Below are positions 1-16,234 of a DNA stretch of 64,000 bases, piece after piece. Source of the stretch: Tsukamurella sp. TY48 (lineage in GTDB: Bacteria; Actinomycetota; Actinomycetes; Mycobacteriales; Mycobacteriaceae). Within the stretch, counting starts at the first letter, position 1. The number at the start of each line of letters is the position of its first letter. The DNA is taken from positions 2,232,001-2,296,000 of the forward strand of contig NZ_BPMV01000001.1 of assembly GCF_019656655.1 (NCBI RefSeq), read 5' to 3'. The translations under genes were made by a program, and so were the position numbers. The notes beneath the pieces are model-generated. The model had not been told where the DNA came from, ran no database searches, and saw only the letters and a program-made list of their open reading frames with translations.

Positions 1-1291
1 CCGACGAGCTGGAGCCGCTCGAACCGGAGCTACCCGATCCCGAGCTGCTCGATCCGGAGTTACCCGAATCGGAACTGCTCGATCCGGAGCCGCTCGAACC
101 GGAGCTACCCGAACCGGAACTGCTCGATCCCGAGCTGCTCGAATCGGAGCCGCTGGAGCTCGAACGCGATCCGGAACCGCTGGAATCCGAACCGGTCGAG
201 CCGGAACTGCTCGAACCCGCGCCGGTCGAACCGGATTCGGTCGAGCGGGAGCTTCCGGAGTTGCTCGATCCGGAGCCGGACCCCTCCGAACCCGTGCGGC
301 CCGACGACGAGCCGGCGCTGCTCGACGACCCGCCTCGGCCCGCCGCCTTCTGCGCGGCGTCGGCCTGCTCGGACGCGGCGGCAGCGGCCTTCTCGGCGGC
401 GGCGCGCTCGGCGGCCGCGCGCTGAGCGGCCTCCCGGTCCACCGGCTTGCGGGCCGCCTCCTCGGCGGCTCGATCCGCTGCGGCCTTCGCCTCGGCGGCC
501 CGGTCCGCCGCCGCCTTCGCGGCGGCCGCGCCGTCCTGCTGGCCCGTTCCGGCCGCCTCGGCGGCCTTCGTCGCAGCGGCCTGGTCGGCTGCGGCCTTCT
601 GCGCGGTCGCCTTGTCGGCGGCGGCCTTCTCCGCCATCGCTTTGTCCACGGCCGCCTTGTCGGCGGCGGTGCGCTCCGCGGCCGCCTTGGCCGCGTTGGC
701 GCTGTCGGACGCCTCCTTAGCCGCGGTGGCCCGGGCCTGCGCGTCCTTGGCCGCATTCGCTCGGTCGGTGGCCGCCTTGTCGGCGGTTTCCTTGGCTGCG
801 GTGGCCTGGTCGGCTGCGGTCTTGGCTGCTGCTGCCTGGTCGGTTGCCGTGGCCTGTTTGGCGTCGGCGTCCTTCTTGGCGGCGTCGGCGGTGTGGGCTG
901 CTGCGGTCTTGTCGGCTGCGGTCTTGTCGGCGGTTTCCTTTGCTGCGGTGGCCTTGTCGGCTGCTGCGGTGGAGGCGTCGGCGGTTTGCTTGGCGGCGTC
1001 GGCCTTGTCTGCGGCGGTCTTGGCGGCGTCGGTGGCTGCCTGTTGTGCGTTGGCGGCGTCGGCGGCGGACTTGTCTGCCTGGGCTTGGGCCTGGGCGGAG
1101 TTGTCTGCTGCTTGCTTGTCGGCGGTGGCCTTGTCTGCTGCGGTCTTGGCGGCGTCGGTGGCTGCCTTTTGTGCGGCTGCGGCGTCAGCGGCGGACTTGT
1201 CTGCCTGGGCTTGTGCCTGGGCGGAGGTGTTGGCCTGCTGCTTGTCGGCGGTGGCCTTGTCCTGTGCGGTCTTGGCTGCTGCTGCCTGGTC
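1..1291 (-). pseudogene. 3' portion of the giant alanine-rich rod protein gene, cut off by the IS element; runs off the left edge
   Basis: Read on the minus strand, the frame used by the large gene at 2540-13108 stays open from the target duplication (1289-1291) to position 1. The first part, to about 345, keeps the same A/D/K/Q repeats (for example DKATADKQQANTSAQAQAQ). The last ~115 codons change to a Ser/Gly-rich tail made of TCC/AGC/TCG and GGT/GGA codons. No stop is seen before the edge, so the natural C-terminus is outside the window. This part has lost its start codon and signal peptide to the insertion, so it is probably not translated as such; internal ATG codons exist (near 636) but no ribosome site was recognised. 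Copy A3 at 5177-5752 shows what the uninterrupted junction looked like. Confidence 0.85.
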
Positions 1292-1317
1292 GGGTCTGCT
1301 GAAGGTCTAGTTGTCAC
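1292..1317. repeat. Left terminal inverted repeat of the IS element
   Basis: 26-bp terminal repeat matching the right end at 24 of 26 positions. The preceding GTC (1289-1291) is the left target-site duplication. Confidence 0.9.
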
Positions 1318-1363
1318 CTGATCTGTAGCGGTCTGCGGACTGTTGCTGGAAGGATGATCGACC

Positions 1364-2536
1364 ATGCCGAAGGCGTATCCAGAGGAGTTCCGTGCTGATG
1401 TGGTCCGCGTGGCCAGGTCGGGGCAGGTCTCGCTCAAACAGGTAGCGGAGGATTTCGGGATCGCGGAGTCGTGTTTGCGGCGGTGGCTGCGGCAAGACGA
1501 TGTCGATGACGGTGTTCGTCCCGGTGTGAGCCGGGACGAGGCGAAGGAGCTGCGGGAAGCGCGGCGGCGGATCCGGCTGTTGGAGCAGGAGAATGAAGTC
1601 CTTCGGCGGGCGGCGGCGTATTTGTCGCAGGCGAATCTGAAGCTCGGTTCGTCCCCCAAAATGATGTTCCCGCTGGTCCGCGAGCTGGCCGCTGACGGGA
1701 TTGCCGTCGCGGTGACCTGCCGGGTTCTGAAGTTCTCCCGCCAAGCCTTCTATGCCTGGAGCGCTGTTCCAGTCTGTGACCGTGATGTCGATGATGCGGT
1801 GGTGACTAATGCTGCGGTCGATGTCCATCGTGATGATCCGGAGTTCGGGTATCGGTTCATCGCCGACGAACTCGTCGCTGCCGGTCACAGTGTGTCGGAG
1901 CGGCGAGTGTGGCGGCTGTGCTCACAAGCTGGTCTGTTCTCCGCGCACAGCCGCCGGCGCGGCAGCGGCAAACGTCCCGGACCGCCGGTCCATGACGACC
2001 TGGTAGAACGCGAGTTCTCCGCTGAGGCCCCGAACCGTTTGTGGCTCACTGATATCACAGAGCACCACACCCGCGAGGGCAAGTTGTATCTGTGCGCGGT
2101 CAAAGACGTCTATGCGAATCGGATCGTCGGATACTCGATCGACGAACGGATGAAGACCCGCATCGCGGTCAACGCCATCAACAGCGCCGTGACCCGGCGC
2201 GGTGGCCCTGCCGCGGTTGCCGGATGCGTAGTGCACTCGGATCGAGGTAGCCAGTTCCGATCACGCCGGTTCACCGAGCAGCTCAACAGGTTTCAGCTCA
2301 GCGGTTCGATGGGCAGGGTCGGCTCCGCCGGGGACAACGCAGCGATGGAATCGTTCTTCTCGCTGCTGCAGAAGAACGTCCTCGACCGCCAGCAGTGGAC
2401 CACCCGCCAGGAACTGCGGACGGCAATCGTCGTCTGGATCGAACGGACCTACCACCGCCGCCGGCGACAACGCACACTCGGCAAGCTCACACCCATCGAA
2501 TTTGAGATGATCTACACAGCCGCCAACGCGGCCTAA
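1364..2536 (+). CDS. IS3-family transposase, OrfA and OrfB in a single frame
   Basis: The 390-residue product catalyses cut and strand transfer of its own element. Residues 1-45 form an HTH_Tnp_1 helix-turn-helix (MPKAYPEEFRADVVRVARSG), followed by a leucine-zipper-like helix at about 60-90. Residues ~145-205 are HTH_21-like, and the retroviral-integrase (rve) core follows. The DDE triad is visible as D230 (LTDITEH), D293 (HSDRGSQF) and E329 (NAAMESFF), with the usual 35-residue spacing between the last two. Most IS3 elements make OrfAB by a -1 frameshift; here both parts are already fused in frame. The CCCCCAAAA stretch at about 1654 lies near the usual junction. The gene fills the element between its inverted repeats and looks intact. 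Confidence 0.95.
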   Translation: MPKAYPEEFRADVVRVARSGQVSLKQVAEDFGIAESCLRRWLRQDDVDDGVRPGVSRDEAKELREARRRIRLLEQENEVLRRAAAYLSQANLKLGSSPKMMFPLVRELAADGIAVAVTCRVLKFSRQAFYAWSAVPVCDRDVDDAVVTNAAVDVHRDDPEFGYRFIADELVAAGHSVSERRVWRLCSQAGLFSAHSRRRGSGKRPGPPVHDDLVEREFSAEAPNRLWLTDITEHHTREGKLYLCAVKDVYANRIVGYSIDERMKTRIAVNAINSAVTRRGGPAAVAGCVVHSDRGSQFRSRRFTEQLNRFQLSGSMGRVGSAGDNAAMESFFSLLQKNVLDRQQWTTRQELRTAIVVWIERTYHRRRRQRTLGKLTPIEFEMIYTAANAA

Positions 2537-2539
2537 CAA

Positions 2540-5500
2540 TCACTGAGCTGAAGTGACAACGAAACCTTCAGCAGACCCGTCTGCTGCGGTCTTGTCTGCG
2601 GCGGCCCGGTCGGCGGCGGCTTGGTCGGCTGCCTTCTTCGCGGCGTCGGCTGCGGTCTTGTCGGCGGTGGCCTTGTCCTGTGCGGTCTTGGCGGCTGCTG
2701 CCCGGTCGGCGGCGTCCTTCTCCGCAGCCGAGCGTTCGGCTGCTGCCTTGTCGGCGGCCTCCTGGGCGGCACGGGCAGCATCCGCCGCGGCCTGCGCGGC
2801 GTCTGCCGCCGCCTTGTCGGCGGCCTGCGCGTCCGCGGCACTCTTCGCGGCGTCAGCCGCCACCTTCTCCGCCGCTGCCTTCTCGGTTGCCGCCTTGTCG
2901 GCCGCGGCCCTGGCCGCATCAGCCTTGTCCGCGGCTGCGGTGGCGGCATCCGTCGCGCTCTGCGCGGCCGCGGCCCGGTCGGCCGCCGCCTTATCGGCGA
3001 TGGCCTTGTCCGCGGCCGCCTTCTCGGCTGCGGTCTGCGTGGCGGTGGCCTTGTCTGCCGCCGCCTGGGCGGACTTGTCCGCTTGCGCCTGCGCCGTCGT
3101 CGCCTCGGCCTGTGCCTTGTCTGCTGCTGCCTTGGCGGCGTCGGCGTTCTGGGCTGCGGTCTTGGCTGCTGCTGCCTTGTCGGCGGCGGTCTTGTCGGCG
3201 GCGGTGGCGGCGTCGGCGTTGCCGGCGGCGGTCGTCGCGTCCTGACGGGCCTTGGCGGCGTCGGCCGCTGCCTTGTCGGCCTCGGCCTTGGCCTGATCGG
3301 CGGCGGTCTTGGCTGCCGCTGCCTGGTCGGCTGCGGTCTTCGCCGCGTCGGCCTTGGCCGCGGCGTCGTTCGACGCGTTCGCCTGGTCGGCCGACGCCTT
3401 CTCAGCGGCGGACTTCTCCGCGGCGGCCTTATCGGCCATCGCCTTATCGGCGGCCGCCTTGTCGGCCGCGACCTGATCGGCCGTCGCCTTCGCTGCCGCC
3501 GCCTGATCCGAGGCGGCCTTCGCCGCAGCGGTGGCATCCGCGGCCGCCTTGGCCGCATTCGCTCGGTCGGTGGCCGCCTTGTCGGCGGTTTCCTTGGCTG
3601 CGGTGGCCTGGTCGGCGGCGGTCTTGGCTGCTGCTGCCTGGTCGGTTGCGGTGGCCTGTTTGGCGTCGGCGTCCTTCTTGGCGGCGTCGGCGGTGTGGGC
3701 TGCTGCGGTCTTGTCGGCGGCGGTCTTGTCGGCGGTTTCCTTTGCTGCGGTGGCCTTGTCGGCTGCTGCGGTGGAGGCGTCGGCGGTTTGCTTGGCGGCG
3801 TCGGCCTTGTCTGCTGCGGTCTTGGCGGCGTCGGTGGCTGCCTGTTGTGCGTTGGCGGCGTCGGCGGCGGACTTGTCTGCCTGGGTTTGGGCCTGGGCGG
3901 AGTTGTCTGCTGCTTGCTTGTCGGCGGTGGCCTTGTCTGCTGCGGTCTTGGCGGCGTCGGTGGCTGCCTGTTGTGCGGCTGCGGCGTCGGCGGCGGACTT
4001 GTCTGCCTGGGCTTGTGCCTGGGCGGAGGTGTTGGCCTGCTGCTTGTCGGCGGTGGCCTTGTCCTGTGCGGTCTTGGCTGCTGCTGCCTGGTCTGCTGCG
4101 GTCTTGTCTGCGGCGGCCCGGTCGGCGGCGGCTTGGTCGGCTGCCTTCTTCGCGGCGTCAGCAGCGGCCCGGTCGGCATCGGCGCGATCCTTCGCCGATG
4201 CGGCCGCGGCCGCGGCATCTCCCGCAGCCTTATCGGCGGCGGCGCGCTCGGAGGCGGCCCGATCGGCGGCGTCCTTGGCGGCGGCCGCTGCCTCGGTGGC
4301 CTTCTTCGCGGCATCCGCCGCATCCCGATCGGCAGCAGCGGCGTCGCTCTGCGCCTTGTCGGCATCGGCCGCTGCCCGATCCGCGGCGGCCTTCTCCGCG
4401 GTGGCCTTGTCCGCCGCGGTCCGTGCGGCGGAAGCCCGGTCCGCCGCGGCGGTGGCCGCGTCCGCTGCCCGCTGCGCTGCGTCAGCGCTCTCGGCGGCCT
4501 GCTTGTCGGCGGTCGCCTTGGCGGCCGCTGCTTGGTCGGCTGCGGTCTTGGTGGCGGTGGCCTTGTCTGCGGCGGACTTGGCCGCGTCGGCTGCGCGGGT
4601 TTGGGCTGCGGTGGCGTCGGCCTGTGCCTTGTCTGCTGCTGCCTTGGCGGCGTCGGCGTTCTGGGCTGCGGTCTTGGCTGCTGCTGCCTTGTCGGCGGCG
4701 GTCTTGTCGGCGGCGGTGGCGGCGTCGGCGTTGCCGGCGGCGGTCGTCGCGTCCTGACGGGCCTTGGCGGCGTCTGCTGCTGCCTTGTCGGCGTCGGCCT
4801 TGGCCTGATCGGCGGCGGTCTTGGCTGCCGCTGCCTGGTCGGCTGCGGTCTTCGCCGCGTCGGCCTTGGCTGCGGCGTCCTTGGCCGCTGCGGCCTGGTC
4901 GTCGGCGGCCTTCTGCGCGGCCGCCTTGTCCGCTGCGGCCTTGTCGGCCATCGCCTTATCGATCGCGGCCTTGTCCGCGGCAGTCCGCTCGGCTGCCGCC
5001 CGAGCAGCCGCGGCGTCGTTCGCCGTCGAGCCGGCACTCTTCGTCCGCTCCGCGGCGGCGCGAGCCGCATCGGCAGCGTTGGTCGCCGCCTGGTCGGCCG
5101 CGGACTGTGCGGCCGCCGCCTGATCGGCGGACTTCTTCGCGTCCGCCGCGGTAGCCGCGGCCCTCGTCTGCTGCGCGTCGGCGTCCTTCTTGGCGGCGTC
5201 GGCGGTGTGGGCTGCTGCGGTCTTGTCGGCTGCGGTCTTATCGGCGGTTTCCTTTGCTGCGGTGGCCTTGTCGGCTGCTGCGGTGGAGGCGTCGGCGGTT
5301 TGCTTGGCGGCGTCGGCCTTGTCTGCTGCGGTCTTGGCGGCGTCGGTGGCTGCCTGTTGTGCGTTGGCGGCGTCGGCGGCGGACTTGTCTGCCTGGGTTT
5401 GGGCCTGGGCGGAGTTGTCTGCTGCTTGCTTGTCGGCGGTGGCCTTGTCTGCTGCGGTCTTGGCGGCGTCGGTGGCTGCCTTTTGTGCGGCTGCGGCGTC

Positions 5501-8500
5501 GGCGGCGGACTTGTCTGCCTGGGCTTGTGCCTGGGCGGAGGTGTTGGCCTGCTGCTTGTCGGCGGTGGCCTTGTCCTGTGCGGTCTTGGCTGCTGCTGCC
5601 TGGTCTGCTGCGGTCTTGTCTGCGGCGGCCCGGTCGGCGGCGGCTTGGTCGGCTGCCTTCTTCGCGGCGTCGGCTGCGGTCTTGTCGGCGGTGGCCTTGT
5701 CCTGTGCGGTCTTGGCGGCTGCTGCCCGGTCGGCGGCGTCCTTCTCCGCAGCGACGCGGTCCGCTGTTGCGCGGTCCGCCGCCGCCTTGGTCGCGGCGGC
5801 CTGATCCGCCGCCGCCTTGGCAGCGTTCGCGGCCGCCTGGTCGGCGGCAGTCGCATCCTGCTTCGCCTTCGCGGCATCGTCGGCCGCCTTCTGCGCCTTG
5901 GCCTGATCGGCCGCAGCGGCATCCGCCGCCGCCTTGGCCGCAGCCGCCGTGTCGGATGCGGACTTCGCCGCGGCGACTGCATCCTGCTGAGCCTTGGCCG
6001 CATCGGCGGCCTGCTTGTCGGCGGTCGCCTTGGCGGCCGCTGCTTGGTCGGCTGCGGTCTTGGTGGCGGTGGCCTTGTCGGCGGCGGACTTGGCCGCGTC
6101 GGCTGCGCGGGTTTGGGCTGCGGTGGCGTCGGCCTGTGCCTTGTCTGCTGCTGCCTTGGCGGCGTCGGCGTTCTGGGCTGCGGTCTTGGCTGCTGCTGCC
6201 TTGTCGGCGGCGGTCTTGTCGGCGGCGGTGGCGGCGTCGGCGTTGCCGGCGGCGGTCGTCGCGTCCTGACGGGCCTTGGCGGCGTCGGCCGCTGCCTTGT
6301 CGGCCTCGGCCTTGGCCTGGTCGGCGGCGGTCTTGGCTGCCGCTGCCTGGTCGGCTGCGGTCTTCGCCGCGTCGGCCTTGGCTGCGGCGTCCTTGGCTGC
6401 TGCGGCCTGGTCGTCGGCGGCCTTCTGCGCGGCCGCCTTGTCCGCTGCGGCCTTGTTCGCGGCGGCAGTGCTCGCCTGCGCTGCATCGGTGGCGGTCCGA
6501 GCGGCGGAGCGGGCCGCCTCGTCCGCTGCGGCCTGATCCGACGTGGCCTTCTGTGCCGCGGTCGAGTTGGAGCTCACCCGGTCCGCAGCGGCCGCAGCGG
6601 AGGCCGCGGCATCGCGTTGCGCGGCCGCGGCAGCCGAAGCCGCCCGATCGGCATCCGATTTGGCCGTTGCCGCCTGGTCGGCTGCCGCCCGGGCGTCCCG
6701 GGCCTTATCGGCCGCGGCCTGAGCAGCTGCGGACGCCGAATCCTGCTTCGCCGCCGCGTCGGCGGCGGCCTTCTCCGCGGCGGTCTGGGCGGCTGCCGCG
6801 GTGTCCGCAGCGCTCCGATCGGCTGCGGCGGTATCGGCGGACGCCTTGGCGGCGGCGGCCTTCTCCGATGCAACCTTCTCCGCGGCGGCCCTCTCCGCCG
6901 CGGCGCGTTGGGCGTCCTTGTCCGCCGCATCGGCGGCATCGGCCGCGGCCTTGTCGCTCGCCGCTCGTTCCGATGCGGTCTGCTGTGCCTTCGTTGCGGC
7001 CGCACGTGCCGCTTCGGCATCGGCCAGCGCCTTATCGGCGGTGGCGCGCGCAGCCTCGGCAGCTTGCTGATCGGCGGCCGCCTTGTCGGCCGCTGCCTTC
7101 GCGGCGGTGTCGGCATCCCGGCGCGCCGCAGCCGCATCGGCCGCGGCCTTGTCGGCGGCCGCCTTGTCCTGCGCGGCCTTCTCCGCCACGGCCTGGGCCG
7201 AGCTCGCCCGATCGGAAGCGGCCTTCGCCGCGTTCGCCGCGTCCTGCTCGGCCTTCGCTGCATCGGCAGCGGCCTTCTCCGCGGCGGATTTCGCTGCGGC
7301 GGAAGCTGCCTCAGCGGCCTTCGCGTCCGATTCCTTCTTGGCGGCGTTCGTCACGGCTGCCGCAGCGGCGGAGCTGATCGCCTGCCGCTCGGTCTGCGCG
7401 GCATCGGCAGCGGCCTTGTTCGCCGCCGCCCTGTCCGCGGCGGCCTTCGCCGCGGCCGCAGCATCGTTCGGGTTCGCCGCAGCAGCCGCCGCGGACTTAT
7501 CGGCAGTCGCCTGTGCCGCGGCAGCCTTGTCCTTCGCGGCCCGCACCGCGGTGTCGTCGTAGGTCACCTGACCAACGGCGGCAGCGGACCGGTCCGCGGT
7601 CGCCTGCGCGCTGGTCGCCCGGTCGGTCGCCGAGCTCAGCGCTGCATCGGCGTTCTGCTTCGTCGTGTTCGCCCCGGCGAGTTGGTCCTGAGCCGCGGTG
7701 TTCGTGGCGGCCGCGGCCTTCGCCTCATTCGACGCCGCGGTCGCGGTGGTGTTGGCAGTGCCCAGCGCCGCTTGCGCCGCGTTATCGCGAGTGGTTGCGT
7801 CACGGAGCGCATTCCGGGCGTCGGTGAGAGCTTGACGCTCTCTGCGGGCAGAGTCGAATAGCAAATTGATGATCGGGGTCAACAAGCCGCCGGTCTTCGC
7901 GCGCAGCTCGGCCTCGCGCTGCGCGACCAGAGCCTGGGCGTTGCGAACGTCGTTGCTCGTCTGGTTCGCGGTCGCCTGCGCCTGCTGCTCCGCAGTGTTC
8001 GCCGCGGCGGACTTGCTCTGTGCCTCCTGAAGCGCGGCCGCGCTCGACTGGGCTGATCGTTGTGCATCCTGCTGGGCCCGCGCGGCATCCGCCGCCGCCT
8101 GGCTGGCGGTGGCCCGCTCATTCGCCGCCGTCGCCGCCGATGCCGCGTCCTGCTGCGCCTTCACCGCGGCGGCGGAGGTGGCCTGCGCCTTCGTGCTGTC
8201 GGCCGCCGCCTTCTCGGCCGCCGCCTTGTCGGCCGCCGCCTTGTCCGCGGCCGCCTTCGCCGAGGCATCGGCAGCAGCGCGGGTAGCGGTGGCGGTTGCC
8301 GCGCTGCGGTCCGCCGCCGCCCGATCCTCGGCGGCCTTCGTGGCCGCGGCACGCGCGGCATCGTTGCTCGACGATGCCGACGCAGCAGCGGAATCCGCAT
8401 CCTTCTGCCGTGCCGCCGCGGCGGTCGCCGCCTGCCGGGCGTCGGATTCGGCTGCCGCAGAGCGCTCCGCGGCGGCCTCAGCGGCGGTCGCCGCATCGGC

Positions 8501-11500
8501 GGCGGTTCGTGCCGCGGCGGCCTTCTCCGCGGCGGTCTTGTCCGCCGCATCCCGTGCGGCGTTCGCTCGATCCTTCTCGGCGCGGGCGGCGGAAGCGGCC
8601 TGCGCCGCTGCTGCCGCCTTGTCCGCTGCCGCCTTGTCGGCGGCGGCCTTCTCAGCGGCGGCGCGATCCGCCTCCGCGCGCTCACGATCGGCCTTCGCCC
8701 GAGCATCGGCCGATTCGGCGGCCTTCGCGCTCGCTGCCGCGGCGCGATCTGCCGCATCGCTCGCGGCGGCAGACTTCTCCTCGGCAGCACGAGCGGCATC
8801 CGCGGCGACCTTCTCCGCGGCCGCCCGCGCAGCATCGGCGGCGTCGGCATCCGACTTCTTCTGAGCCGCAGTGGCGCCGGCCTGATTCGCGGTCGCAGCC
8901 CTCGCGTCGCTGGCCTTCGCGGCCTCGGCCGCGGTGCGGTCGGCGGCGGCCTGGTCGGCCTGCGCCTTCTGCAGCGCGGCGTTGGCGGCCGTGGTGCGGT
9001 CCGCCGCGGCGCGTGCGGCCGAGGCTCGATCGGCCGCGGCGGTGGACGCGTCGCCGGCCTTGTTGCGAGCGGCGTCCGCAGCCGCAGCGGAGGCATCCGC
9101 CGCGGCCTTCTCTGCGGCAGCCCGTTCGTCGGCTGCCTTCTTCGCCGCGGCAGCGTCCTGCGAGGCCTTGTCCGCGGCAGCGGCGGATTGCTGTGCCGTG
9201 TTCTGCTTCACGGAGGCATTGGCAGCAGCGGAACTCGCGGCTGCGGCCTTCTCGGTGGCGGTCTGCGCCGCCGTCGCCTTCTCCGCCGCGGCAGTCAACG
9301 CGGCGGCCTTGTCCTTGGCAGCCTGCGCGGCGGCGGCGTCGGCCTGCTGCTGCCCGGCGCGGGCGGTGTCCGCCGCGGCGGCGGCGTTCTTGGCCGCGGT
9401 GGTCTTGTCGGCCAGGTCCTTATCGGCCGCCGTCTTGGCATTGTCCGCAGTGGTCTTGGCGGTCTGCGCCTGTGCCGCTGCGGTGTTCGCCGCGTCCGAC
9501 CTCGTCGTCGCGGACGCCGCAGCCTGCGAGGCGCTGGTGGCGTTGCGCGTGGCCTGATCGGCAGCCTGATCGGCGGCGGTCTTGGCTGCGGCCGCGGAGT
9601 CGGAGGCGGACTTGGCACTGGCGGCCTTGTCGGCGGCGTCCTTGGCTGCCGTGGCCTTCTGGTTCGCCGCCGTGGTGGCGTTGTCGAGGTTCTTGGCTGC
9701 GGCAGCCCTGTCGGCGGCGGCCTTATCGGCGGTCGCCTTATCGGCGGCGGCTCGATCGAGGGCGGTCCGCTCGGCGGCGCGCTTGTCGGCGGCGTTCTTG
9801 GCTGCGTCGGCGGCGGACTTCTCCGCGGCGGTCTGCGCGGCGGCGGACTTGTCGGCGGCGTTGTTGGCGTCGGCGGCGGCGGTGTCGGCGGTCTTCTGGG
9901 CGGCCTGCTTGTCGGCGGCGTTCTTGGCTGCGTCGGCGGCGGCCTTCTCTGCGGCGGTCTGTGCAGCGGCGGAGTCGGCAGCGGTGGCCTTGTCAGCGCT
10001 GGCGTTGTCTGCGGCGTTCTTCGCGGCGTCGCGGGCGGCGGTGGCGTTGGAGGTGGCCTGTGCGGCGTCTTTCTGTGCCGTGTCACGGGCCGCTGCCGAG
10101 TCGTTCGCGGTCCGCTTATCGGCGGTCGCCTTGTCGGCGGCGTTCTTGGCGGCGGTGGCGGCGTCGGTCGAGGCCTTGGTGGCGTCGTCGGCGGCCTTCT
10201 GGGCGGCGGCTCGGTCGTCGGCGGCCTTCTGCGCGGCGGCCTTGTCGGCGGCGGCTTGGTTTGTGGCGGTGCGGCGTTCGTTCTCGCGGTCGGCTGCGGC
10301 CTGCTCGGCTGCCTTCTTCTCTGCGGTGGCCTGCTCGGCGGCCTTGGCCGCCTTGTCGGCGGCGGCGGTGGCGTCGTTGAGTTTCTGCTGCGCGTTCGTG
10401 GCGGCGTCGGCAGCGGACTTGTGGGCGGCGTCGGCGGCGGCCTTATCGGCGGCGGCCTTCTGCGCGGCGTCCTCGGCCTGCTTCTGCGCGTCCCGTGCGG
10501 CGGCGAGCCGGTCGGCGGCGGCCTTCGCGGCGGCGGTGTTGTCGGCGGCGGTCTTGTCGGCGTCGGCGCGCTCCTGAGCGGCCTTCGCGGCGTCCGCGGC
10601 GGCCTTCTGCGCGGCATCGTTCGCGGCAGCGAGACGCTCGCCGGCAGCGGTGGCCGCAGCCGCGGCATCCTTCGCGGTCTTATCGGCAGCCGCGGCGGAC
10701 TGTTCCGCCGCGCTCTTCGCAGCCGCGGCCTTGTCGGCGGCGGACGCAGCCGCGGCCGACGCGCTATCAGCGCTGTTCGCAGCCTTCGCCTGGGAGGCGG
10801 CGGCCGAGAGTGCGGCGGCCTTGTCCTTGGCAGCCTGATCGGCGATGGCCGTCGCCTGCTGGTGAGTCGTTCGGGCGGTATCCGCGTCAGCGGTGGCCTT
10901 CGTGGCCGCGGCGGTCTTATCGGCGAGGTCCTTATCGGCCGCCGTCTTGGCGCTATCGGCGTCGGACTTCGCGGCGCGGGCCTGTGCGGCCGCGGAGTCG
11001 GCGTCCTTGGCCTTCGTGGCGGCGGATGCGGCCTGGTCGGCGGCCGATTTCGCCGCGTCGTTGGCCTTGCTGGCTGCGGTGTCCGCCGCGGTCTTGGCGG
11101 TGGCGGCGTTGTTCGCGGCGGTGGTGGATGCCGCGGCCTTATCGGCGGCGTCCTTGGCTGCGGAGGCTGCGGTCGAGGCGTTCTTGGATGCGTTGTCGAG
11201 GTTCTTGGCGGCGGTGGCGCGGTCGGCACTGGCCTTGTCCGCAGCCGCCTTGGCGTCGGATGCGGCGGTGTCGGCGTTCTTCTGGGCGGCCTGCTTGTCG
11301 GCGGCGTTGTTGGCTGCGTCGGCGGCGGCCTTCTCCGCGGCGGTCTGCGCGGCGGCGGACTTGTCGGCGGCGTTGTTGGCGTCGGTTGCGGCGGTGTCGG
11401 CGTTCTTCTGGGCGGCCTGCTTGTCGGCTGCGGTCTTGGCTGCGTCGGCGGCGGCCTTGTCGGCGGCGGTCTGTGCGGCGGCGGAGTCGGCTGCGGTCTG

Positions 11501-13108
11501 CTTGTCGGCGGTGGCCTTGTCTGCTGCTGCCTTGGCGGCGTCGCGGGCGGCGGTGGCGTTGGAGGTGGCCGAGTCGGCCTTGTTCTCCGCGGCCTTCTGC
11601 GCAGCGGCGGAGTCGGCTGCGGTGGCCTTGTCGGTGGCTGCCTTGTCGGCGGCGGCCTTCGCCGTGTCTCGGGCGGTGGTGGCCTTCGATGCGGCGTCGT
11701 CGGCGGCCTTCTGGGCGGCGGCTCGGTCGTCGGCGGCCTTCTGCGCGGCGGCCTTGTCGGCGGCGGCTTGGTTTGTGGCGGTGCGGCGTTCGTTCTCGCG
11801 GTCGTCGGCGGCCTGCTCGGCTGTCTTCTTCTCTGCGGTGGCCTGCTCGGCGGCCTTGGCCGCCTTGTCGGCAGCGGCGGTGGCGTCGTTGAGTTTCTGC
11901 TGCGCGTTCGTGGCGGCGTCGGCAGCGGACTTGTGGGCGGCGTCGGCGGCGGTCTTATCGGCGGCGGCCTTCTGCGCGGCGTCGGCTGCCTTGGACTGGG
12001 CATCACGCGCGGCATTCAGCTGATCCGCAGCCGTCTTGGCCGCGGCGGCCTTCTCCGTCGAAGCCTGCTCGGCTGCGGTGCGATCCTTCGTCGCCTGTTC
12101 TGCTGCCGCGGCGGCCTTCTGCGCGGCCGTATTGGCGGCAGCGAGGCGATCCTCGGCCTTCTTCACGGCGTCGGCGGACGCCGACTGGTTGGCACGCGCG
12201 GCGTCCAACGCCCTGCGCGCCCGGTCCGCCTCGCTCGCAGCCCACTCCGCCGCGATGCGTGCGGCCATCGCGCTCGCGCGCGCCTGCGCCGCGTAGTCGA
12301 TACCCGGAATGCTCACGGGGGAGCGGAGATCGAAGTAACCGCCGATCCCGAAGCCGAACCCGATACCGGGACCCAGACCGATGCCGAAGCCGATGCCGGC
12401 GCCCAGCCGCAGACCGTCGGGCCCGTAGCCCAGGCCCGCGCCCAGACCGAACCCGATACCGACGCCCGGCGCGATGCCGAGGCTGAAACCGGTGCCGAAG
12501 CCGTAGGGCAGGGCGGGACCGAATCCCGGCGTGAGACCGAGATTGAACCCGGGAGTGAACCCGTACCCGGGGCCGAAGCCCCCGCCGAAGCCCACGCCGG
12601 ACCCGAACCCGAAGCCGTTGCCGAGCCCCGCGCCGAAGCCCGCGCCCGCGCCGAAACCGAGCCCGGGGCCGAAGCCGACTCCCGCACCCAGTCCGAAGCC
12701 CGGACCGTCCGTCGGCGCCCCGACGCCCACCCAGGGGCCCAGACCGATCCGCCCGAAGTCAGGGGCATTGCCGATCACATAGGAGCCGTTGCTGTTGTAG
12801 CCGCCGAGTGCGAAGCCACAGCTGAGGTCCAGCGGACTGTTCGCACCGCGCGCGCCCAGCCACACGAGCCGCGTGGGGTAGCACGGTGCGGTGGCGGTCC
12901 CCGCGGACGCGCGATCGGCCACCGCGGCGGACGGCACCTGCACCGAGAACGGAGACCCCATCCAGCCGGCGCTCGCGGGCGTGAGCGCCACCTGTCGCGT
13001 GCTGGAATCGATGAGGTTGTTCTGTGCTGCGGCAACTCCAGCGGAGCCTGAGGTCACCAGGCCCACGACAGTGGTGGTTGCAGCAGCGGCGCGTGCGATC
13101 GACGACAT
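2540..13108 (-). CDS. Giant secreted alanine-rich rod protein (N-terminal ~3,510 residues, truncated by the IS)
   Basis: I do not recognise a named family. Residues 1-28 are a Sec-type signal peptide ending GVAAA-QN. Residues 29-120 hold two cysteines (C76, C97) that could pair. Residues 121-258 are a Gly/Phe/Pro-rich block (GFGPGLGFGAGAGFGAG). From about 272 onward the chain is almost only A, D, K, T, Q, E and R in pentad-like units (AAADK, AAAQK, TAADQ, AAAAK), with occasional seven-residue units. Breaks occur near residues 1735-1760 (GGLLTPIINLLFDS) and 1835-1860. Such sequence should be almost wholly helical. The last 12 residues and stop come from the IS. Without it the protein would exceed 3,900 residues. 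The start has an AAGGA 11 bases upstream. Inference: an extracellular or envelope spacer or fibre. The truncated product might still be exported. Confidence 0.8.
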   Translation of the reverse strand: MSSIARAAAATTTVVGLVTSGSAGVAAAQNNLIDSSTRQVALTPASAGWMGSPFSVQVPSAAVADRASAGTATAPCYPTRLVWLGARGANSPLDLSCGFALGGYNSNGSYVIGNAPDFGRIGLGPWVGVGAPTDGPGFGLGAGVGFGPGLGFGAGAGFGAGLGNGFGFGSGVGFGGGFGPGYGFTPGFNLGLTPGFGPALPYGFGTGFSLGIAPGVGIGFGLGAGLGYGPDGLRLGAGIGFGIGLGPGIGFGFGIGGYFDLRSPVSIPGIDYAAQARASAMAARIAAEWAASEADRARRALDAARANQSASADAVKKAEDRLAAANTAAQKAAAAAEQATKDRTAAEQASTEKAAAAKTAADQLNAARDAQSKAADAAQKAAADKTAADAAHKSAADAATNAQQKLNDATAAADKAAKAAEQATAEKKTAEQAADDRENERRTATNQAAADKAAAQKAADDRAAAQKAADDAASKATTARDTAKAAADKAATDKATAADSAAAQKAAENKADSATSNATAARDAAKAAADKATADKQTAADSAAAQTAADKAAADAAKTAADKQAAQKNADTAATDANNAADKSAAAQTAAEKAAADAANNAADKQAAQKNADTAASDAKAAADKASADRATAAKNLDNASKNASTAASAAKDAADKAAASTTAANNAATAKTAADTAASKANDAAKSAADQAASAATKAKDADSAAAQARAAKSDADSAKTAADKDLADKTAAATKATADADTARTTHQQATAIADQAAKDKAAALSAAASQAKAANSADSASAAAASAADKAAAAKSAAEQSAAAADKTAKDAAAAATAAGERLAAANDAAQKAAADAAKAAQERADADKTAADNTAAAKAAADRLAAARDAQKQAEDAAQKAAADKAAADAAHKSAADAATNAQQKLNDATAAADKAAKAAEQATAEKKAAEQAAADRENERRTATNQAAADKAAAQKAADDRAAAQKAADDATKASTDAATAAKNAADKATADKRTANDSAAARDTAQKDAAQATSNATAARDAAKNAADNASADKATAADSAAAQTAAEKAAADAAKNAADKQAAQKTADTAAADANNAADKSAAAQTAAEKSAADAAKNAADKRAAERTALDRAAADKATADKAAADRAAAAKNLDNATTAANQKATAAKDAADKAASAKSASDSAAAAKTAADQAADQATRNATSASQAAASATTRSDAANTAAAQAQTAKTTADNAKTAADKDLADKTTAAKNAAAAADTARAGQQQADAAAAQAAKDKAAALTAAAEKATAAQTATEKAAAASSAAANASVKQNTAQQSAAAADKASQDAAAAKKAADERAAAEKAAADASAAAADAARNKAGDASTAAADRASAARAAADRTTAANAALQKAQADQAAADRTAAEAAKASDARAATANQAGATAAQKKSDADAADAARAAAEKVAADAARAAEEKSAAASDAADRAAAASAKAAESADARAKADRERAEADRAAAEKAAADKAAADKAAAAAQAASAARAEKDRANAARDAADKTAAEKAAAARTAADAATAAEAAAERSAAAESDARQAATAAAARQKDADSAAASASSSNDAARAAATKAAEDRAAADRSAATATATRAAADASAKAAADKAAADKAAAEKAAADSTKAQATSAAAVKAQQDAASAATAANERATASQAAADAARAQQDAQRSAQSSAAALQEAQSKSAAANTAEQQAQATANQTSNDVRNAQALVAQREAELRAKTGGLLTPIINLLFDSARRERQALTDARNALRDATTRDNAAQAALGTANTTATAASNEAKAAAATNTAAQDQLAGANTTKQNADAALSSATDRATSAQATADRSAAAVGQVTYDDTAVRAAKDKAAAAQATADKSAAAAAANPNDAAAAAKAAADRAAANKAAADAAQTERQAISSAAAAAVTNAAKKESDAKAAEAASAAAKSAAEKAAADAAKAEQDAANAAKAASDRASSAQAVAEKAAQDKAAADKAAADAAAARRDADTAAKAAADKAAADQQAAEAARATADKALADAEAARAAATKAQQTASERAASDKAAADAADAADKDAQRAAAERAAAEKVASEKAAAAKASADTAAADRSAADTAAAAQTAAEKAAADAAAKQDSASAAAQAAADKARDARAAADQAATAKSDADRAASAAAAAQRDAAASAAAAADRVSSNSTAAQKATSDQAAADEAARSAARTATDAAQASTAAANKAAADKAAAQKAADDQAAAAKDAAAKADAAKTAADQAAAAKTAADQAKAEADKAAADAAKARQDATTAAGNADAATAADKTAADKAAAAKTAAQNADAAKAAADKAQADATAAQTRAADAAKSAADKATATKTAADQAAAAKATADKQAADAAKAQQDAVAAAKSASDTAAAAKAAADAAAADQAKAQKAADDAAKAKQDATAADQAAANAAKAAADQAAATKAAADRATADRVAAEKDAADRAAAAKTAQDKATADKTAADAAKKAADQAAADRAAADKTAADQAAAAKTAQDKATADKQQANTSAQAQAQADKSAADAAAAQKAATDAAKTAADKATADKQAADNSAQAQTQADKSAADAANAQQAATDAAKTAADKADAAKQTADASTAAADKATAAKETADKTAADKTAAAHTADAAKKDADAQQTRAAATAADAKKSADQAAAAQSAADQAATNAADAARAAAERTKSAGSTANDAAAARAAAERTAADKAAIDKAMADKAAADKAAAQKAADDQAAAAKDAAAKADAAKTAADQAAAAKTAADQAKADADKAAADAAKARQDATTAAGNADAATAADKTAADKAAAAKTAAQNADAAKAAADKAQADATAAQTRAADAAKSAADKATATKTAADQAAAAKATADKQAAESADAAQRAADAATAAADRASAARTAADKATAEKAAADRAAADADKAQSDAAAADRDAADAAKKATEAAAAAKDAADRAASERAAADKAAGDAAAAAASAKDRADADRAAADAAKKAADQAAADRAAADKTAADQAAAAKTAQDKATADKQQANTSAQAQAQADKSAADAAAAQQAATDAAKTAADKATADKQAADNSAQAQTQADKSAADAANAQQAATDAAKTAADKADAAKQTADASTAAADKATAAKETADKTAADKTAAAHTADAAKKDADAKQATATDQAAAAKTAADQATAAKETADKAATDRANAAKAAADATAAAKAASDQAAAAKATADQVAADKAAADKAMADKAAAEKSAAEKASADQANASNDAAAKADAAKTAADQAAAAKTAADQAKAEADKAAADAAKARQDATTAAGNADAATAADKTAADKAAAAKTAAQNADAAKAAADKAQAEATTAQAQADKSAQAAADKATATQTAAEKAAADKAIADKAAADRAAAAQSATDAATAAADKADAARAAADKAATEKAAAEKVAADAAKSAADAQAADKAAADAAQAAADAARAAQEAADKAAAERSAAEKDAADRAAAAKTAQDKATADKTAADAAKKAADQAAADRAAADKTAADGSAEGFVVTSAQ
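2553..2578. repeat. Right terminal inverted repeat of the IS element
   Basis: 26-bp repeat, reverse complement of the left end with two mismatches. GTC at 2579-2581 is the right target-site duplication. Read on the minus strand, this end supplies 12 foreign codons (GSAEGFVVTSAQ) and the stop that terminates the truncated rod protein. Confidence 0.9.
3546..4158. repeat. Internal repeat family A, copy 2 (rod gene)
   Basis: About 600 bp nearly identical to the stretch at ~750-1291 continued at 2582-2650 (copy 1, split by the IS) and to 5177-5660 (copy 3). On the minus strand it encodes the segment with TADKQQANTSAQAQAQADK and ADNSAQAQTQADK motifs. It gives the pre-insertion sequence CCTGGTCTGCTGCGG at the IS target. 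Confidence 0.85.
4495..4945. repeat. Internal repeat family B, copy 2 (rod gene)
   Basis: About 450 bp nearly identical to 6008-6453 (copy 3), with a shorter related copy at 3101-3370. It encodes the ARQDATTAAGNADAATAADK segment on the minus strand. Near-identity at DNA level, including synonymous sites, points to recent duplication or gene conversion. Confidence 0.82.
5177..5752. repeat. Internal repeat family A, copy 3 (rod gene)
   Basis: Matches copy 1 across the IS insertion point: 867-1291 plus 2582-2727 joined. It shares the CTGCCCGGTCGGCGGCGTCC stretch ending at 2723 and 5747 or so. It confirms that nothing except the IS and one GTC was added to copy 1. Confidence 0.85.
6008..6453. 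repeat. Internal repeat family B, copy 3 (rod gene)
   Basis: Second long copy of family B; differs from 4495-4945 at only scattered bases (for example CTTGTCGGCG against CTTGTCTGCG at about 6076). Confidence 0.82.
10195..10478. repeat. Internal repeat family C, copy 1 (rod gene)
   Basis: About 280 bp repeated at 11694-11981. On the minus strand it encodes the AEQATAEKKAAEQAAADREN and ERRTATNQAAADKAAAQKA stretches. Weaker similarity continues on the low-coordinate side (9700-10060 against 11200-11560), so the duplicated unit may be close to 800 bp. Confidence 0.8.
11694..11981. repeat. Internal repeat family C, copy 2 (rod gene)
   Basis: Second copy of family C, 1.5 kb from copy 1 and nearest the N-terminal end of the rod. 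It reads AEKKTAEQAADDREN where copy 1 reads AEKKAAEQAAADREN. Confidence 0.8.
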
Positions 13109-13324
13109 GTTTTCTTCAGTCCTTTTGGGCAGGGATGCACAGCGCAGTCGTGCATCGTGCCAAAAGTGTCATTGCAAATAGGCCAACGCGGTACCAAATC
13201 AGATTCAATGTCGCGAATTCTTCAAAGTAGGTTTGGGCCACGCGCGACTGCAGATGTAGTCACGAACAGCAGTTCGATGAGCACCTGCTCAGTACGACGC
13301 TTGTTCGTTAGCAACAGGTTCGTT

Positions 13325-13903
13325 CTAGGGCGGCGAGAGCAGCGGCACTCCCGCCGCTTCCGCGGCCTCGCGGTACGCGGCGGCCAGGCTGGACACCGTT
13401 TCGTGGGCGTTGAGGCCGCTCGGATTGGGCAGGACCCACACCGCGGTCTCGCCGAGCCCCCGCGCCTGCCTCCCGACCGTGGCCTTCGGCTGACCGAAGG
13501 CCGTTCGGAACGCGGTGACCCCGAGCACCGCCAGAACCCGCGGGGCGACCCGATCGACCCGGGCCAGTAATGCCTCGCCGCCCTCCCGGAGCTCCGTCGT
13601 CGTCAGTTCGCTCGCCTTCGCCGTGGCCCGCGGGGCGACATTGGTGATGCCGACACCCGCGGCGATGAGCGCCTCGCGGTCCTCCGCGCGCATGCCCTCG
13701 GCGGCGTCGATCACGTGATCGGTGATGCCCGCGGCGTACAGCGCCGGATAGAAGCGGTTGCCGGGACGGGCGAAGTGGGCACCCGTGGCCGCGGTCCACA
13801 GCCCCGGATTGATCCCGGCGAACAGCAGCCGACAGTCCGGACCGATCAGATCGGGTACCTCGGTATCGGCGAAGGCCAGCAGCTGCTCGCGCGTGAATCC
13901 CAT
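13325..13903 (-). CDS. mug: G/U mismatch-specific DNA glycosylase
   Basis: The 192-residue protein belongs to the Mug family of the uracil-DNA glycosylase fold, which removes uracil or ethenocytosine from mismatches in base-excision repair. The two family signatures are both present: motif 1 as FAGINPGLWTAATGAHFARP near residues 28-47 (the N of NPG is the catalytic asparagine) followed by GNRFYPAL, and motif 2 as LPNPSGLNAH near residue 158. Length is typical for actinobacterial members. It is transcribed away from the SnoaL-like gene at 13948, with only 44 bp between start codons, so a shared divergent promoter region is likely. Confidence 0.92.
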   Translation of the reverse strand: MGFTREQLLAFADTEVPDLIGPDCRLLFAGINPGLWTAATGAHFARPGNRFYPALYAAGITDHVIDAAEGMRAEDREALIAAGVGITNVAPRATAKASELTTTELREGGEALLARVDRVAPRVLAVLGVTAFRTAFGQPKATVGRQARGLGETAVWVLPNPSGLNAHETVSSLAAAYREAAEAAGVPLLSPP

Positions 13904-13947: not shown

Positions 13948-14472
13948 ATGACCGTGGACGAACTCCTGGCCCGCCGCGAGATCCACGACGTGGTCCTCCG
14001 CTACTGCCGCGGCATCGACCGGCTCGACCTGGACGCGGTGCGCGACTGCTACCACCCGGGCGCCGTCGATCATCACACCGGCTTCACCGGGCCGGTGGAG
14101 GACTACGTGCCCTGGGTGCGTGGCCAGCTCACTTCGCTCGGCGGCACGCACCACCAGATCGGGAACCATCTGTGCGAGCCCTCGGGAGACACCGCGGTGG
14201 TCGAGACCTATTGCACGGCAACGCACTGGTCCACCCCGGGCGCGGAACTCCAGGCCTACGTGACGCTGGGCCTGCGCTACGTGGACCGGTTCGAGCGCCG
14301 GGCCGGACGGTGGGCGATCGCCGAGCGTTGGGCCGTCACCGACTGGACACGCTGGGAGAAGGACCTCACCGGACCCCTCGGCGTACCGGAGGCCGGCCCG
14401 CCGCCCGGGCGCGGCGGCGACGATCCCATCGACCTGCTCCGCGCTCAGGTACTGGGGCGCGACCGCTCGTAG
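13948..14472 (+). CDS. SnoaL-like (NTF2 fold) protein
   Basis: The 174-residue protein starts MTVDELLARREIHDVVLRYC, the beginning of the SnoaL_4 / NTF2-like superfamily. RGIDRLDLDAVRDCYHPGAVDHHTG follows the usual first-helix and beta pattern with acidic/His residues in the cone-shaped pocket. Such domains act as isomerases, hydratases or binding proteins, often on polycyclic or steroid-like substrates; no substrate can be assigned here. Its stop lies 28 bp inside the 3' end of the convergent ABC ATPase gene, so the two genes overlap tail to tail. Confidence 0.8.
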   Translation: MTVDELLARREIHDVVLRYCRGIDRLDLDAVRDCYHPGAVDHHTGFTGPVEDYVPWVRGQLTSLGGTHHQIGNHLCEPSGDTAVVETYCTATHWSTPGAELQAYVTLGLRYVDRFERRAGRWAIAERWAVTDWTRWEKDLTGPLGVPEAGPPPGRGGDDPIDLLRAQVLGRDRS

Positions 14473-15407
14473 AGCCGGCGCACCACGTCCTCGATATCGG
14501 GCTCGTCCACCGTGAGATCGCGCACCGTCGCCGTGTGCGAGACCGCGGCCAGAACCTCCGGCAGCGCGCCGCTCAACTCCAATCGTTGACGGAGGCCGCC
14601 GGCCTCGCTGGCGAGGTGCCGCGCACCGTCGACGTGCAGATCCGGAGTGGGACGGTCCAGGTCCAGCACGAGCACCCGCGCGGCACCCACGGTGTCGACG
14701 AGTCCGGGCAGCGTGCCGTCGTAGGCGGTGCGGCCGCGGTCGACCACCACGATCCGGTCGCAGAGGCGCTCCACATCGCCCATATCGTGCGTGGTGAGCA
14801 GCAGCGTGAGGCCGCGCTCGGCGCGCTCGGTGATGAGGAACTCGCGCAGCCGCTGCTTGCTGAGCACGTCGAGACCGATCGTGGGCTCGTCGAGGATCAG
14901 CAGCTCGGGGGAGTGCAGCAGCGCCGCGGCGACCTCCGCACGCATCCGCTGGCCGAGGCTGAGCTGGCGCACCGGCTGATCGAGGAACTCCGCCAGCTCC
15001 AGCCGCTCGACGAGCCGGCCGGTGCGGGCCCGCGCCTCGTCGGGCGTGAGCCGGTGGATGGCCGCGAGGATGTCGAACGAGCGGGAGGTGGGCAGGTCCC
15101 ACCACAGCTGGGAGCGTTGCCCGAAGACCACGCCCACGCGGCGCGCCACCGCGCGGCGCTGGGTGAGCGGATCGAGCCCGACGGTGCGCACCGTGCCGGA
15201 CGTGGGCACCAGGATGCCCATGAGCATCTTGATCGTGGTCGATTTCCCCGCACCGTTCGCGCCGATGTACCCCACCGATTCCCCGGGCGCCAGAGCGAGA
15301 TTCAACCGGTCGACGGCCGTGGTCTCCTTCTTCACCCGGCCGTTCCAGCCGCGCCGGACGAAGGTCCGGGTCAGATCGTGCGTCTCGATGATGTGTGGAC
15401 CGTTCAT
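14445..15407 (-). CDS. ABC-2 type transporter, ATP-binding subunit
   Basis: The 320-residue ATPase drives the two permeases encoded just upstream. Walker A is GANGAGKST at residues 49-57, the signature is LSLGQRMR at about 149, Walker B is LLILDEP near 169-175 and the switch histidine is H207 (TTHDMG). The C-terminal ~90 residues form the extension typical of the COG4586 ATPases that pair with COG3694 and COG4587 permeases. The start ATG at 15407 is chosen because it overlaps the stop of the preceding permease by four bases (ATGA). The export substrate is unknown. Related clusters are annotated as daunorubicin/lipid-type ABC-2 exporters. Confidence 0.88.
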   Translation of the reverse strand: MNGPHIIETHDLTRTFVRRGWNGRVKKETTAVDRLNLALAPGESVGYIGANGAGKSTTIKMLMGILVPTSGTVRTVGLDPLTQRRAVARRVGVVFGQRSQLWWDLPTSRSFDILAAIHRLTPDEARARTGRLVERLELAEFLDQPVRQLSLGQRMRAEVAAALLHSPELLILDEPTIGLDVLSKQRLREFLITERAERGLTLLLTTHDMGDVERLCDRIVVVDRGRTAYDGTLPGLVDTVGAARVLVLDLDRPTPDLHVDGARHLASEAGGLRQRLELSGALPEVLAAVSHTATVRDLTVDEPDIEDVVRRLYERSRPST

Positions 15408-16234
15408 CCGCCCGCCCCTCGGTAGTGCCGAATACCCAGCCGCCAGAAGAAGGCCGCCACCAGCACCGCCCACAGCGTGGCCAGCGGCAACAGCCACGCC
15501 AACCACGGCTGGAAGACGCCCTGGCCGGGCAGCTCCAGCACCACCAGCGTGGGGAGGTAGCCGGTGAAGGCCAGCGGTAGTACGAATCCCAGCGTCACCT
15601 TCAAGGCCGCGGGCATCACCGGTGCGGGTTGCGTGGCCGCGTACCTGCCGCCGTAGACGAAGGCATTGGTGAACTCGGCGCCGTTGACCAGGACGAACTG
15701 CAGCCCGGCGGCGATCACGAAGATGCTCGCGTAGATCACCGGTCCGCACAGCATCGCGAGCACCAGCATGCCGATCGTGGTGGGGCCCCAGTCGATCGGG
15801 TTGTGGGTGAGCGCGTACACCAGCGCGAAGACGCTCACCGCGGGCCGGGTGAGCCGGTTGATCCGGATGTCGCTGGTCATGAGCTGCGCCAGGATCGGCT
15901 GCGGGCGCAGGTAGAAGACGTCCACCGTGCCCTTGCGGATGTACCGGTTCAGCTTGTCCAGATGGCCGAACAGGATGTCGGCCAGGCAGAACGAGCCGTC
16001 GGCCAGCGCGAACACGAGCACCACCGCCGAGAAGGTGAGGCCGCCGATCACCTTGGCGTTGTGGAACAGCAGCCACACCTCGGCGAACTCGACGAGCCCG
16101 AGCACCGCGGCGGTCACCAGGTCGAGGGCCAGGGAGGCGCGGTAGGAGGCCTGCGCCTGGATGCGGGAGGCCAGCACCGCGCGGTAGGGCGCGAGCCGTC
16201 CGGGACGCCGGGACCCGGCGGAGACGTCAGCCAC
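15404..16234 (-). CDS. ABC-2 type permease, second subunit
   Basis: A 276-residue membrane protein with about six hydrophobic segments (for example LVTAAVLGLVEFAEVWLLF, LTFSAVVLVFALADGSFCLA, LPLATLWAVLVAAFFW). It has the conserved middle FGHLDKLNRYIRKGTVDVFY found in COG3694 permeases. It overlaps the next gene by 4 bp and the previous by 8 bp, so the three subunits are translationally coupled. It forms the membrane channel with the product of 16227-17081. Confidence 0.85.
   Translation of the reverse strand: MADVSAGSRRPGRLAPYRAVLASRIQAQASYRASLALDLVTAAVLGLVEFAEVWLLFHNAKVIGGLTFSAVVLVFALADGSFCLADILFGHLDKLNRYIRKGTVDVFYLRPQPILAQLMTSDIRINRLTRPAVSVFALVYALTHNPIDWGPTTIGMLVLAMLCGPVIYASIFVIAAGLQFVLVNGAEFTNAFVYGGRYAATQPAPVMPAALKVTLGFVLPLAFTGYLPTLVVLELPGQGVFQPWLAWLLPLATLWAVLVAAFFWRLGIRHYRGAGG

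Follow-up and report, generated by a model that had tools for sequence, protein, structure and literature searches.

The window analysed here is a stretch of 64,000 nucleotides from the genome of Tsukamurella sp. TY48, and its left part carries a giant gene for an alanine-rich rod protein. The open reading frame lies on the minus strand at 2540-13108 and encodes 3,522 residues. Most of it is the rod of residues 272-3509, in which 1,565 of the 3,238 residues are alanine (48%), with aspartate (383) and lysine (316) next in frequency; the alanine-rich rod of more than 3,000 residues announced in the original prediction is real. The rod is preceded, as was also predicted, by a signal peptide and a Gly/aromatic block. 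Residues 1-29 (13022-13108, minus strand) read by eye in the translation as a signal peptide of the Sec type, and this leader is kept in two of the related genomes described below (G013 and G010). Residues 30-265 (12314-13021, minus) form the N-terminal domain, which consists of a short part with two cysteines, C76 and C97, followed by the Gly/aromatic block at residues 135-258 (12335-12706, minus; 44% Gly, with a strict Gly-X run of 41). C97 is invariant across the four sequences of this type, called type A, and C76 is invariant in the three that reach that far.

The rod falls into two arms on either side of a central break near residues 1722-1882, and the idea of one continuous rod had to be given up. 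The N-arm, an alanine heptad rod delimited by constant heptad phase, power and composition, covers residues 271-1738 (7895-12298, minus) and holds a tandem 504-residue repeat in two copies at residues 322-1270 (9299-12145, minus; limits at a mismatch penalty of 2.0). The break opens with the presumed hairpin tip, residues 1722-1760 (7829-7945, minus), located around the turn sequence TGGLLTPIINLLF by hydrophobic density and alignments. A second and a third helix break, VGQVTYDD and NPND, follow at residues 1845-1882 (7463-7576, minus) and are recognised by their spacing in all six proteins compared. The C-arm, traced by heptad phase and power, occupies residues 1883-3510 (2579-7462, minus) as far as an insertion sequence (IS). 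From residue 2218 it carries a tandem 504-residue repeat (2579-6457, minus), the third copy of which runs on past the IS.

The IS of 1,287 bp (1292-2578, plus strand) splits the rod gene. Its transposase frame lies at 1364-2536, the 3-bp target repeat GTC is found at 1289-1291 and 2579-2581, and terminal inverted repeats are present; the ends were set by comparison of four of the ten genomic copies, the window copy included. The transposase has the domains rve and HTH_Tnp_1, a pair which we take to denote the IS3 type. As the ten copies, spread over both contigs of the genome, are near-identical, the element has probably been active recently. The rod frame stops within the IS, which encodes its final 12 residues. 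Past the IS, the remaining C-arm can be followed in its reading frame for 281 residues (449-1291, minus), ending before KPVDR, and near the IS this piece has 99% DNA identity to the corresponding parts of C-arm copies one and two. The tail, with 46% Ser and 21% Gly over 177 residues, takes up positions 1-448 (minus), with its stop codon about 90 bp beyond the left edge of the window. The predicted Ser/Gly tail does exist, but past the IS and not as part of the open reading frame. The uninterrupted gene would have counted about 3,968 codons (3,504 + 464, by addition). The disrupted copy is probably inactive in this strain, where its role may still be filled by a paralogue that is intact.

The type A gene is present in four of 16 Tsukamurella genomes at one syntenic site, namely in TY48 (G000), G004, G010 (T. 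paurometabola DSM 20162) and G013. A fifth profile match, in G015, is weak and Gly-rich. In all 12 negative genomes both flanks stand on one contig and the gene is missing, so the absence is real and an assembly gap behind it is ruled out; the flanks are about 0.9 kb apart in eight of these genomes and under 0.1 kb apart in four. Ten of the 12 gene-free sites were read, and at this variable slot (L053-L060) each of the eight larger gaps is occupied by a short gene resembling, by eye, a ketopantoate reductase. The type A frame comprises 3,437 residues in G013 and 2,382 in G010. In G004 an in-frame stop occurs near the N-terminus, and type A is thus broken in two of its four genomes.

A profile of the break region, applied at E 1e-8, found 4 of the 401 genomes of a family sample and 2 of the 397 of an order sample, two samples that overlap, and all of the genomes found are Tsukamurella. 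The same profile revealed a paralogue, type B, at syntenic sites in TY48 (3,074 aa) and G010 (2,309 aa). The intact TY48 copy is encoded on the minus strand at 4155-13376 of L041 (G000:C1:979000-997000). Type B has a lipoprotein-like N-terminus and no Gly block, with the same break and the same PVDR-type end as type A; the start of the TY48 copy, MTKSRAV...LITASAC, fits by eye what we take to be the relaxed lipobox pattern. In the window copy, the X positions of the Gly-X block are mostly hydrophobic over long runs, and it is this block that is missing in the lipoprotein-like paralogue. A profile of the N-terminal domain was positive in 35 of 401 genomes, 30 of them outside Tsukamurella. These 30 matches, together with G015 and a second place in the TY48 genome, were taken as Gly-rich chance matches; none of seven inspected loci (L007, L016-L019, L022, L030) has the rod architecture, and two scans of genome contigs with N-terminal profiles gave no confirmed relative. 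The protein is apparently genus-specific, as far as these profiles indicate. Leader, rod and tail are kept by the homologues of the genus, and the helical and presumably exported spacer or fibre proposed at the outset is well supported.

No Pfam or NCBIfam family lies above its curated cut-off in the window frame or in TY48 paralogue B, both of which were scanned whole; the sole sub-threshold match is Extensin_1 in paralogue B, at 23 bits against a cut-off of 105. Sequence searches of the PDB gave no match for the N-terminal domain (E up to 0.1) or the break region (E up to 0.001). The strand opposite the rod genes contains very long open frames, at 2621-7861 and 8060-13051 (plus) in the window and at 4821-13748 (plus) in L041, which reach 2,975 codons from stop to stop. 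Such frames are a by-product of Ala-rich and GC-rich coding and a trap for gene finders.

The order of the rod is described by the coherent Fourier power of alanine, computed within arm limits that were chosen post hoc. At a period of 3.5 residues this power amounts to 66.0 in the N-arm and 81.9 in the C-arm of the window copy, where 300 permutations per arm gave no more than 6.2 and 300 order-3 Markov strings per arm no more than 13.3. Values of 18.0-58.0 were obtained for the remaining six long arms of type A, and across all eight the control maxima are 6.5 for permutations and 13.3 for Markov strings (300 each). No control string reaches the heptad power of any of the eight long type A arms, or that of either C-arm of type B. 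Ahead of the tip, the limits skip 94-101 residues in type A proteins and 117-120 in those of type B; they also skip 18-33 residues after NPND, 39-85 residues before the end in the five complete C-arms and about 140 residues at the rod start of G013, where the phase shifts. The N-arm heptads of type B are weak, with a power of 9.7 in TY48 (Markov maximum 7.3; C-arm 25.8) and of 4.8 in G010, which is not above chance (Markov maximum 8.8; C-arm 13.7). The arm piece past the IS, with 8.7, is inside its Markov range (maximum 9.8). The heptad as an artefact of repeat copies is ruled out by single-copy controls, since the power is still 35.2 with one N-arm copy left out and 24.3 inside one C-arm unit.

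The heptad phase of alanine and large hydrophobic residues in the window copy stays at 1.0-1.8 over residues 271 to about 1,593 and at 0.1-0.7 over about 1,887 to 3,505. In G010 and G013 the phase is kept less tightly, and in G013 it shifts near residue 400. The core position holds 80-81% Ala and 4-6% Ser (85-86% together), and the partner position 62-68% Ala, accompanied by K/R/Q and little D/E/T. Acids make up 2-5% at these two heptad positions and 13-24% at the remaining five. Across the eight long type A arms the best heptad position is 73-82% Ala, and it is weaker in type B (61-74%). Acid-poor positions that keep a constant phase over more than 1,000 residues per arm suggest a buried stripe and paired helices. 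Such a pattern speaks for a coiled coil packed around an alanine core and not for a single helix of the EAAAK type. Alacoils are defined as antiparallel, closely packed helices with a small residue at each seventh position, and a small residue recurs at every seventh position of the window copy. Single alpha-helices of the EAAAK type have no buried stripe; here the constant acid-poor positions point to one.

The local grammar of the rod is that of pentads. The charges recur every five residues (lag 5: 0.33 for K/R, 0.21 for D/E), so the pentad pattern of the original prediction holds for the charges, and it fails for the long-range order of alanine, which is heptad. Of the autocorrelation peaks expected at 5 and 7, the first was found for the charges, and plain alanine is flat at lag 7 (-0.01). 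The power at period 5.0 is weak in the window copy (1.5 in the N-arm, 5.1 in the C-arm), which rules out a pure pentad order. A second peak stands at 5.25, that is 21/4 (54.8 and 25.3), and it is strong in most arms. The pentads close on 21 and 42 residues, or three and six heptads, and in this way stay in heptad register; the pentad and the heptad view are both right, on different scales. The placement of lysine four residues before an acid was confirmed too, with acids at i+4 from Lys/Arg at 3.31 times expectation in the N-arm of the window copy. AAADK- and AAAEK-like local grammar is known from TolA domain II and from designed EAAAK linkers, which are much shorter and without a heptad-locked pair of kilo-residue arms. 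A single EAAAK-type alpha-helix of about 480 nm, at a helix rise of 0.15 nm per residue, would agree with the alanine content, the pentad charge spacing and the 3.3-fold i+4 enrichment. A lone helix, however, has no need of a heptad that stays coherent, and poor in acids at two positions, through more than 1,300 residues of each arm, and this heptad persists in the single-copy controls. Together with the equal duplications round the central break, considered below, the acid-poor stripe speaks against the lone helix, which now appears quite improbable.

The central break shows one order of landmarks in all six proteins, in which the hydrophobic turn is followed by YDD 106-112 residues on and by NPND 29 further. 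YDD reads YDN in one protein and NPND reads HPDD in one. The densest 30-residue window of L/I/F/W/Y/M within the rod overlaps the turn in each of the six. The window copy has two prolines in residues 272-3512, one at the turn and one in NPND, and the other proteins have one to three more. The break region of the other copies is 43-66% identical to that of the window copy. The tip of TY48 paralogue B, KGLIYNALDKILLQRIKKAQ, is identical in the T. paurometabola paralogue, while the arms diverge. Exactly two of the three breaks reversing the chain would leave the arms parallel.

The two arms are expanded by tandem duplications, which were scanned in each arm over every offset from 30 to 1,099. Each expanded arm has one dominant unit, and the units of the N- and C-arm are equal in all three expanded proteins: 504/504 in the window copy, 504/504 in G013 type A and 378/378 in TY48 type B (scores 388-1,536). 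The three unexpanded proteins have no unit in either arm, as no offset but 42 scores above 66. Both 504 and 378 are multiples of 42, and DNA repeats of 42 residues could themselves favour units of such multiples. When whole units are subtracted by hand from the landmark distances, the base length from rod start to tip is 936, 965, 964, 964, 963 and 963 residues, and that from NPND to the end 904, 905, 904, 904, 872 and 904 (G010 A, G004 A, G013 A, window copy, G010 B and TY48 B, respectively). Arm lengths along the rod, by hand and with the 29-residue YDD-NPND stretch taken as a side turn, are 936/987 in G010 A, 965/982 in G004 A, 1468/1490 in G013 A, 963/954 in G010 B, 1341/1364 in TY48 B and 1468/1994 in the window copy. 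The last, with its unequal arms, is one of the two copies that are now broken.

These lengths bear on the view that the rod is a low-complexity expansion with no selected architecture, in which matched arms are a coincidence of repeat slippage. The patchy occurrence in four of 16 genomes and the two broken copies, one by the IS and one by the G004 stop, would fit such an origin. Against it stand the nearly constant break spacing, base N-arm (936-965) and base C-arm (872-905), all held despite a break region of only 43-66% identity, and the frames of more than 2,300 codons that remain open in four copies. An unselected expansion is accordingly given very little credence, the least of all the readings considered.

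The position of the repeats was measured as distance from the tip. At a mismatch penalty of 2.0 the repeats of the two arms roughly mirror each other: they span 180-971 (N) vs 178-976 (C) in TY48 type B and 472-1408 (N) vs 493-1510 (C) in G013 type A, where the far ends differ by 102; the near ends in the window copy are 469 (N) vs 479 (C). At a penalty of 2.5 the N-arm near end of the window copy moves from 469 to 627, which counts against a hairpin. A penalty of 3.0 puts the near ends of the N-arm repeats at 629, 574 and 381 (window copy, G013, TY48 B) and the mirror match is lost, and the C-arm near ends stay at 479, 495 and 178. The N-arm stretches shrink at higher penalty because the N-arm copies are more diverged. 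Copy numbers are equal between the arms in two of the three expanded proteins. The window copy, with three units in its C-arm and two in its N-arm, was unequal by 504 residues before the IS, which likewise counts against a hairpin. A further point against it is that in TY48 type B likeness between copies is 99% in the C-arm and 77% in the N-arm, so that duplication or homogenisation did not happen jointly in both arms. The copies cluster by species, their likeness being greater within than between species; the duplications are therefore recent or homogenised, and as few as two of the matched events may be independent of one another. Under a rough random model the probability of two equal length pairs is 0.002-0.01, and about 5e-5 once positions are included, with tolerances set in knowledge of the observed differences and each position figure resting on about ten hits in 200,000. 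The sample as a whole consists of six proteins from four genomes with shared ancestry.

The equal duplications that flank the central break suggest that the chain folds back over a length of about 0.2 micrometre. If the arms lie side by side and antiparallel, equal and mirrored duplications are to be expected. In the favoured reading, the N-arm would run outward from the cell, the chain would turn at the short hydrophobic tip, and the C-arm would return antiparallel next to the N-arm. The N-terminal anchor domain and the Ser/Gly tail would thereby end up together at the cell surface; the Gly-X block could anchor the protein in the mycolate layer as a beta or polyglycine structure. The tip would stand off by about 140 nm in the unexpanded proteins to about 220 nm in the expanded ones (G013), the length of the rod being tuned by equal tandem duplication in both arms. 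A likely role would be that of a spacer, or of an adhesin with a binding tip, reaching beyond the mycolate envelope. That the protein is an exported giant with an alanine-core, Alacoil-like coiled coil, folded as an out-and-back hairpin and serving as spacer or adhesin, seems slightly on the probable side. The narrower proposal, an out-and-back rod of about 0.2 micrometre whose length is set by mirrored duplications in multiples of 42 residues (six heptads) for the stand-off of a hydrophobic tip from the mycolate cell, is tentative and falls somewhat short of an even chance.

The same arm statistics would be expected of an antiparallel dimer of two extended chains, in which each N-arm lies against the C-arm of the partner chain and equal arms are likewise demanded. 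In such a dimer, however, a chain anchored at one end must set its partner the other way round, and the hydrophobic, turn-like break finds no explanation; the arrangement is regarded as improbable.

The pattern of charges was compared for parallel and antiparallel pairing. Parallel pairing in register is charge-unfavourable in all 12 arms, with z of 1.4-6.4 and two arms below 2. The best parallel stagger is favourable at 2-3 heptads in nine of the 12 arms and amounts to 8-9 heptads in three, namely the two N-arms of type B and the type B C-arm of G010. The antiparallel score between the arms repeats every 42 residues. Four of its best registers fall to one side of the tip register, by 16.6, 8.4, 3.6 and 2.4 residues, and two to the opposite side, by 8.8 and 1.5 (range 21), the side having been worked out by hand from the phase, and they show no convincing clustering at the tip register. 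In myosin, a 28-residue charge repeat drives staggered parallel assembly. An extended parallel homodimer or trimer, with like arms paired and perhaps staggered, would by analogy build lateral filaments or a rod that may reach about 500 nm, and both the 42-residue charge repeat and the favourable stagger of nine arms agree with it. Yet it leaves the equal duplications of the two arms unexplained, its in-register form is unfavourable throughout, and the conserved hydrophobic break would idle in the middle of the rod. Such an oligomer is considered unlikely, though it deserves more weight than the antiparallel dimer.

The closest known system to the fold-back rod, by analogy, is the stalk of antigen I/II (SpaP), in which an Ala-rich heptad region is intertwined with a Pro-rich one and lifts the apex by more than 50 nm, according to the part of the source considered (PMC7732690). 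The likeness lies in a secreted adhesin stalk with an Ala-rich heptad arm, a second region intertwined with it and a lifted apex, and the Ala-rich helical heptad arm is present in the window copy. The second strand of antigen I/II is Pro-rich, whereas both arms of the rod would be Ala helices; a Pro-rich return strand is absent, with two prolines in residues 272-3512. Antigen I/II, as outlined there, has a globular V domain at its apex and an LPXTG anchor. In place of a V domain, the rod has at its apex some 30 residues of hydrophobic turn, flanked by helix-like stretches, and no LPXTG sorting signal was found in the six tails, read by eye. With three of the four defining features tested missing, membership of the antigen I/II family was rejected. 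As a hairpin, the rod would have about three to four times the length of the stalk described.

The coiled-coil arms of SMC proteins are intramolecular and antiparallel. Their length is constrained and varies in steps, with an arm of about 47-49 nm in the portion of the source considered (PMC5344682). The length constraint is of the same kind as that proposed here, and Rad50 is comparable; SMC proteins, however, are cytoplasmic ATPases with hinge and heads, and have no family match to the rod protein. The giant surface proteins of Apilactobacillus kunkeei include predicted alpha-helical rods, one of about 0.2 micrometre, in the sections of the source considered (PMC12863079). They resemble the rod as bacterial giant repeat proteins of this scale, but are parallel alpha-helical repeat stacks (a single long helix in Giant5), Asn-rich and with beta-solenoid domains, and those sections describe no mirrored arms. 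Long coiled coils also act as spacers in giantin (about 0.5 micrometre) and Omp-alpha (50 nm), as the excerpt of PMC5082667 reports; these have other anchors, alanine is nowhere mentioned in that review, and the excerpt describes no fold-back. Among the literature matches listed, no such rod, no named Tsukamurella surface rod and no matched arm duplication was recognised.

If the fold-back reading is true, the protein would be a natural rigid spacer several times the length of the antigen I/II stalk, with a core almost purely of alanine, and a candidate adhesin for Tsukamurella. It would also be a case in which protein structure marks genome rearrangement, duplications being retained mainly as matched pairs, and it would offer a natural long Ala-core hairpin for materials design. 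Elsewhere in the window, an ABC ATPase frame with two ABC2_membrane_6 permeases lies near the rod gene (14445-17081, minus). A type II/IV secretion ATPase (T2SSE) that may belong to a Tad-like pilus locus is encoded at 27767-28951 (plus), and a DNA topoisomerase with a histone-H1-like (HC2) tail at 37951-40917 (plus).
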